A DNA stretch of 41,681 nt from a virus: IMG/VR virus record IMGVR_UViG_3300032011_000027, positions 1 through 41,681 of that record. One strand, 5' to 3'. The notes under the pieces were generated by a model, which was not told the DNA's origin, did not search any database, and was given only the letters and a program-made list of their open reading frames with translations. A program made the position numbers and the translations under genes. The number at the start of each line of letters is the position of its first letter. Position 1 is the first letter of the stretch. Below, piece by piece: positions 36,572 through 37,268 of this stretch.

Positions 36572-36604
36572 TGTGTTACTATAACATATTTTCTAGTAAA
36601 TGTA

Positions 36605-36850
36605 AAGTGTGTAGTTTCTGTTGCCACGTACTACACAACGCCGTTTGCCTAGTAACTAGGCAGCAAGAGCTAAACTTTCGTTTGCTTTTATAGTTTTGAT
36701 AGTACGCTATCAGCGATTTAACTCCAAATAGTTTTAGTAGTAGTCGAATCTAACTCACCCCCTTAAAGCACACTATTATATGTGTTTTGAATTGGTGGAG
36801 GTGGTGGGAATCGCACCCACGTCCTCACTAGTTATTATCTATTCTTCAAC
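36605..36850 (-). ncRNA. ssrA: Circularly permuted (two-piece) tmRNA
   Basis: Read 5' to 3' on the minus strand. First comes the acceptor piece (about 36850-36793): T-arm GTGGG-TGCGATT-CCCAC followed by CACCTCC and ACCA, ending at 36793. After a 30-base spacer comes the coding piece, starting at 36762 with GGGGGTGAGTTAGATTCGAC. GGGGGUG pairs with CACCUCC over 7 base pairs with one G-U. CUAUUU (36731-36726) can pair with GAAUAG (36844-36839) as helix P2. The tag frame at 36685-36656 reads ANESLALAA then UAG, a typical LAA-type degradation tag. A hairpin (GCCTAG/CTAGGC) starts at the tag stop, and an 8-bp stem closes near 36608. tmRNA frees stalled ribosomes; the permuted order is the alphaproteobacterial form. 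Outer ends are approximate. Confidence 0.9.
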
Positions 36851-36860
36851 GTCAAATTCA

Positions 36861-37268
36861 TTATAAATCTTTCCCTAATCTTGGTGGTTCAGTCCATTGT
36901 AAATCAAATGACTTATACATCATACAAGATTCTGTACCTGCCATATTAGTTACTACTGCTATTGATTGAGAAAAGTCTTCTGATATCCAGTAGGTAACGT
37001 AATATACAATTTGGTTTTCAGGTTTTGCATTCTCTCTTCCAACTGACATATTAGCCATTAGAAATTTATGATGTTTTAAATACTCTTCAACATATTCCTG
37101 TTTACCACAAATAACTGGCATTGACATCCAATATAATTTTGCCATTTGGTCTTGTTCAGGCTGTAATGGTTCTATAGTATTAGGTGTTTCTGGTGTTTGC
37201 TCCGCCATAGCAACAGTACTCATTAAGAGTAATGCTCCAAAAATTAGTGATATTATTGTCTTGTACAT
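36861..37268 (-). CDS. 135-residue exported protein
   Basis: A clear Sec signal peptide: MYKTIISLIFGALLLMSTVA followed by MAE, with probable cleavage after VAMA. The mature part (about 112 residues) has two Cys (VICGK and ESCMM) that could form a disulfide in the periplasm, and a beta-rich core (QIVYYVTYWISEDFSQSIAV). GAGAGG precedes the ATG. It lies directly upstream of the tmRNA acceptor piece. Family not recognised; the setting suggests a periplasmic role during infection or lysis. Confidence 0.7.
   Translation of the reverse strand: MYKTIISLIFGALLLMSTVAMAEQTPETPNTIEPLQPEQDQMAKLYWMSMPVICGKQEYVEEYLKHHKFLMANMSVGRENAKPENQIVYYVTYWISEDFSQSIAVVTNMAGTESCMMYKSFDLQWTEPPRLGKDL

Follow-up and report, generated by a model that had tools for sequence, protein, structure and literature searches.

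The window, that is, the whole stretch of 41,681 nucleotides analysed here, carries a phage-borne, circularly permuted gene for tmRNA, the bacterial RNA that frees stuck ribosomes, and this gene is very probably functional. The virus is marine and related to phages of SAR11 bacteria, which count among the most abundant groups of marine bacteria. The gene itself, its form, structure, tag, conservation and affinity to SAR11 were read from the sequence.

The complete two-piece ssrA gene lies on the minus strand at about 36907-36606 according to ARAGORN and Rfam. It is flanked by the gene for an exported protein (37268-36861) and by gp33 (36571-36356, minus strand; PF16805, E 6.7e-23; phrog_254), a late-transcription coactivator gene and its constant downstream neighbour. 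ARAGORN called a permuted tmRNA at 36888-36565 with the tag ANESLALAA. Furthermore, cmscan matched RF04321 (tmRNA_permuted; 99.6 bits, E 2.3e-18, full model 1-213, curated cut-off 47) and RF01849 (alpha_tmRNA; 87.1 bits, E 2.2e-22, full model 1-355, curated cut-off 50), the whole RF01849 span being 36606-36907. These calls agree with the initial annotation, which had placed a permuted tmRNA between gp33 and the exported protein on the minus strand and had proposed a permuted covariance model and ARAGORN as checks. Its pieces were all located where it had put them and its place (36605-36850) was right, with ends slightly short of the RF01849 span. An independent structural detector also recovered the gene in the window and gave 0 matches among 80 shuffled sequences, so the gene is not a chance arrangement, as had been argued earlier from the pairing between its pieces. 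Blastn-type DNA similarity searches of the tmRNA region against phage records returned no match, even with distant settings, and the tmRNA region of Pelagibacter phage Mosig, used as a DNA query against the same kind of records, matched only itself; covariance models were therefore needed.

Structure and conservation of the two-piece RNA

The acceptor piece is encoded upstream of the coding piece, and a 7-bp acceptor stem joins both (all parts below are on the minus strand). Its 5' strand GGGGGTG opens the coding piece (GGGGGTGAGTTAGATTCGAC; 36756-36762) and its 3' strand CACCTCC lies at 36797-36803. All seven pairs (36797-36803 with 36762-36756) are formed in the window, as initially annotated, and the stem is 100% paired in 30 relatives. 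The third acceptor pair, G3-U70, is a known alanine identity signal and is G-U in 30 of 30 relatives. A discriminator A followed by an encoded CCA at 36795-36793 provides the A-CCA end. The T-arm GTGGG-TGCGATT-CCCAC (36804-36820) has five pairs, again 100% paired in the 30 relatives, three of the five showing compensatory changes. What had been described as a possible P2 helix proved to be real: the acceptor-piece strand GAATAG (36839-36844) pairs with the coding-piece strand CTATTT (36726-36731; 36844-36839 with 36731-36726), and among the 23 closest relatives 99% of cells are paired, with compensatory changes, the helix being GGTTAG/CTAACT in the L018 type. Between the acceptor and coding pieces lies an excised spacer of 30 nt with an ACAC/GTGT hairpin (36763-36792).

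The tag frame ANESLALAA with its stop TAG, as first annotated, was called by ARAGORN at 36685-36656 (codons GCA AAC GAA AGT TTA GCT CTT GCT GCC TAG) and has a degron-like AA end. In relatives the tag frame is open and the C-terminal xxxxxALAA or a close variant is kept; acceptor and tag features were thus retained in all close relatives, where their loss would have spoken against the annotation. The stem of the 3' hairpin TGTGTAGT-ACGTGGCAACAGAA-ACTACACA (36608-36637) is formed by every one of the 54 distinct relatives; 17 versions of the stem sequence occur among them, and every loop contains AACAGAA. A 3-bp pseudoknot between the strand CGT (36638-36640) and the partner loop ACG (36629-36627) covaries across relatives (CGT/ACG, CCT/AGG, GGT/ACC and AGT/ACT), with exceptions, as two of its three pairs fail in 6/30 and 3/30 sequences. 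Over the 30-sequence alignment, the covariation score of the named structure was 0.351, versus 0.127 for shuffled alignments and at most 0.105 when the partners were slid. Gaps in the raw alignment led RNAalifold to misfold the 3' hairpin, and an explicit structure with per-sequence matching was used instead. A single-sequence fold of the window pairs other bases too and was left out as evidence, and the folds used here did not resolve a PK1 (the pseudoknot upstream of the tag).

In the gap between the tmRNA and gp33, a sigma-70-like promoter TTTACA-N17-TATAGT (36578-36606, minus strand, a 10/12 match) starts exactly at the tmRNA end, recurs in relatives and probably drives gp33; promoter-like matches in this region were not above shuffle expectation. 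Immediately upstream of the tmRNA of the window, the search gave no convincing promoter. As a separate observation, several phage tmRNA genes (L007, L018, L019, L035, L039, L043 and others) share hairpin types (GCCTGAC, GTGTAGT) and tag types across different tRNA-like-domain (TLD) backgrounds, and this mosaic look suggests recombination inside the gene.

Distribution among phages and relation to known tmRNAs

Buchholz et al. 2022 have reported a permuted two-piece tmRNA in phage Melnitz and its relatives, located immediately ahead of the gp33 coactivator gene; they found 53 two-piece phage tmRNAs via ARAGORN and showed an alphaproteobacterial affinity (PMC9004378). In addition, the GenBank record of Mosig (MT647606) already has SsrA annotated beside gp33. 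The tmRNA of the window is thus not a new kind, which answers a point that the initial annotation had left open. Melnitz (MZ577097, a Methylophilales phage) and the virus of the window are both T4-like marine phages of the Kyanoviridae with a permuted alpha-type tmRNA upstream of gp33. However, Melnitz has a nested ORF in its spacer, the tag ANDNYVPVDYALAA and a glutamine riboswitch behind the tmRNA, whereas the window has a 30-nt spacer without an ORF, the tag ANESLALAA and no glutamine riboswitch. The SsrA of Mosig shares with the window its position directly before gp33 and the gene order, but has the tag GEDNFALAA and differs in spacer and 3' stem. Mycobacteriophages and Bacillus phage G also carry tmRNAs, which are one-piece, and mycobacteriophage DS6A carries a TLD-only RNA (PMC4131195); unlike that of the window, these are not permuted, and the DS6A RNA is without a tag frame.

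A total of 80 IMG/VR loci with a close homolog of gp33 were examined. ARAGORN found a tmRNA in 61 of them and Rfam in 17 more. In L051 and L065, the two loci left over, the sequence ahead of gp33 is just 76 and 164 bases long, so a tmRNA is present in 78 of 78 testable loci. ARAGORN thus missed 17 of the 78 genes in the group of the window, and ARAGORN-based counts such as 17/47 contigs are therefore probably too low. The choice of tool hid many phage copies, including an unannotated permuted tmRNA in HTVC008M (KC465899, 145161-145370, equal to L324 2162-2371; tag ANFNEYALAA), and the published record is corrected in this respect. Among loci near HTVC008M, 15 of the 16 tested with Rfam had no tmRNA, so this branch has seen gain or loss of the gene. 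The nearest cyanophage loci examined have an exonuclease gene immediately preceding gp33 and no annotated gene in the interval. Given its single site beside gp33, its compensatory mutations and its host-like tag, the tmRNA is a stable part of the phage group of the window and not a stray capture.

It has been stated that these phages use a riboswitch or a tmRNA, rarely both (PMC9004378). This fails for the Melnitz-type loci here, since a glutamine riboswitch lies directly behind the tmRNA in 14 of 20 (L488, L491, L492, L497, L499, L503, L505, L509, L511, L517, L518, L524, L535 and L539), all 20 having been chosen as tmRNA carriers. The tmRNA and the glutamine riboswitch are not alternatives.

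Affinity to SAR11 and proposed function

Of 197 genomes in the SAR11 order, 176 had an alpha_tmRNA match above threshold. In 73 SAR11 loci, which were picked partly for high score so that tag shares are not population frequencies, the commonest tag was ANESYALAA, followed by ANDELALAA. The tag of the window is one residue away from ANESYALAA, which is common among phages too, other phage tags being GEGNFALAA and ANEQFALAA. A tree built from 87 tmRNAs placed the phage sequences together in a single group (91/97), which a branch with 100/100 support links to five SAR11 genomes; three of these five carry ANESYALAA. A single clade of SAR11 tmRNAs was not formally rejected (p-AU 0.086), and the phage branches are long. 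We therefore dropped a nesting of the phage sequences inside SAR11 as proven and report affinity only. Together, the sequence data make a SAR11-lineage origin of the phage tmRNA well supported, with the exact donor not fixed, in line with the alphaproteobacterial host origin and permuted form first proposed, the latter borne out by the match to RF01849 over the full model.

Compared with SAR11 chromosomal tmRNA (RF01849), the gene of the window has the same two-piece layout, acceptor stem, ANESYALAA-type tag and 3' hairpin with a CAACAGAA loop. It is nevertheless strongly diverged (87 bits, versus about 221-244) and sits in a phage genome beside gp33. Phages in general scored about 60-123 bits with the RF01849 model versus about 221-244 for the SAR11 host genes listed, and because the score is so far below that of host genes, the phage RNA is divergent and might have changed its use.

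We consider it highly likely, on the evidence of sequence, that the gene encodes a functional SAR11-type two-piece tmRNA that is processed and charged by the host, tags unfinished proteins and adds to the tmRNA available during infection. We infer its transcription, processing, charging and tagging, and a benefit to the phage, along the following lines. Host enzymes of tRNA processing, probably RNase P and tRNase Z, would cut one transcript at the spacer, and pairing in the 7-bp acceptor stem and in the inter-piece helix would keep the acceptor and coding pieces together. The RNA would be charged by host AlaRS via G3-U70 and brought by host SmpB to ribosomes that have stalled, and its tag, ANESLALAA, would mark the unfinished protein for host proteases. 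Breakage of mRNA during infection may stall many ribosomes; the phage most likely supplies extra tmRNA, which would keep ribosomes available for virus production. In Caulobacter, trans-translation does proceed with a permuted tmRNA, according to Keiler 2000 as cited in PMC3985003.

The initial annotation had gone further, suggesting from L7/L12 in the same genome that the phage manages ribosome rescue itself. The bL12 gene (ribosomal protein L7/L12) is indeed in the window (12658-12296; PF00542, E 3.7e-22, and PF16320), and a link to ribosome rescue is speculation. Searches for SmpB (PF01668), on the other hand, were negative for Mosig, HTVC008M and Melnitz, whose genomes are complete, and for the partial contigs tested. 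Self-sufficiency is therefore not upheld: as SmpB is missing from three complete relatives, the phage RNA must use host SmpB, AlaRS and RNases. The stable place of the tmRNA in the phage group makes it plausible that virus and host contend over ribosome rescue in SAR11.

Other roles are less likely, because the tag, its degron-like end, the structure and the place are all maintained. Buchholz et al. 2022 proposed for Melnitz, where the gene sits behind an early promoter, that an altered tag or timing sends host proteins selectively to degradation so that amino acids are recycled (PMC9004378). Tags do vary among phages (GEGNFALAA, ANEQFALAA and others), yet the commonest tag of the phage group is also the commonest of SAR11, tmRNA acts on stalled ribosomes whatever the mRNA, and no host-specificity feature was seen here; we regard such a special purpose as quite unlikely. 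Still less probable is a phage RNA that ties up SmpB or AlaRS and thereby blocks trans-translation in the host, for which DS6A gives a possible precedent, as its tmRNA consists of the tRNA-like domain only and a similar molecule strongly inhibits tmRNA (PMC4131195, PMC11915505). Such a decoy would need none of the constraint on the tag frame, 3' hairpin and pseudoknot, nor a tag close to that of SAR11. That the gene is a host copy without present function, acquired for instance by imprecise prophage excision, is the least credible reading and already contradicted, as the gene is complete, fixed beside gp33 in diverse phages and marked by compensatory base changes, even though integration at ssrA is known and fragments of this gene can be carried by phages (PMC9004378).

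The excised spacer of sister phages

The spacer of the window holds no cargo in its 30 nt, and the window has no standalone YLSG-type ORF. In contrast, sister phages at 35 loci (22 distinct sequences) have an excised spacer of 115-186 nt with an ATG ORF, usually preceded by a GGAG/GAGG-like sequence and encoding a small product with [RK]YLSG or similar near its end. In Melnitz (L359 6097-6230), the ORF has a GGAG-like leader and the pattern MFKWL..ITRDYF..R.RKADAKIPKYLSG, of which variants occur, and it is not annotated as a CDS in the Melnitz record. Such ORFs were also present in L488, L497, L503-L509, L515-L518, L521, L533, L535, L538, L539, L556 and L567, and in L064, L066 and L081. In an eight-sequence Melnitz-like set, summed dN/dS was 0.15 in the ORF frame, whereas the two alternative frames, which contain stops, gave 1.0 and 1.6. 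Because the members of this set are related to one another, the sums do not count as independent observations, yet the frames differ clearly. A second sequence set gave a dN/dS of 0.25 in the ORF frame. In some loci, the frame continues into the mature coding piece.

Searches of phage records found no homologs of the microprotein outside the tmRNA spacer, the only matches lying in SsrA of four Melnitz records, and PHROG gave one weak match (E 0.084). A literature search of incomplete coverage for ORFs in tmRNA intervening segments returned nothing relevant, and prior reports may exist. On balance, it seems somewhat probable that in the Melnitz group and in L064, L066, L067 and L081 the spacer holds a translated microprotein gene (MF..W....[RK]YLSG), one transcript giving both a two-piece tmRNA and a small protein. 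The protein would come from the discarded loop or from the unprocessed precursor of the tmRNA, and ribosomes translating the loop might be in competition with tmRNA maturation or set its timing. A gene nested within the spacer, as in these sister phages, is an apparently new arrangement that can be tested. In one further locus (L076 2723-2799), a complete tRNA-Arg (TCT) is nested in the spacer, between the acceptor and coding pieces.
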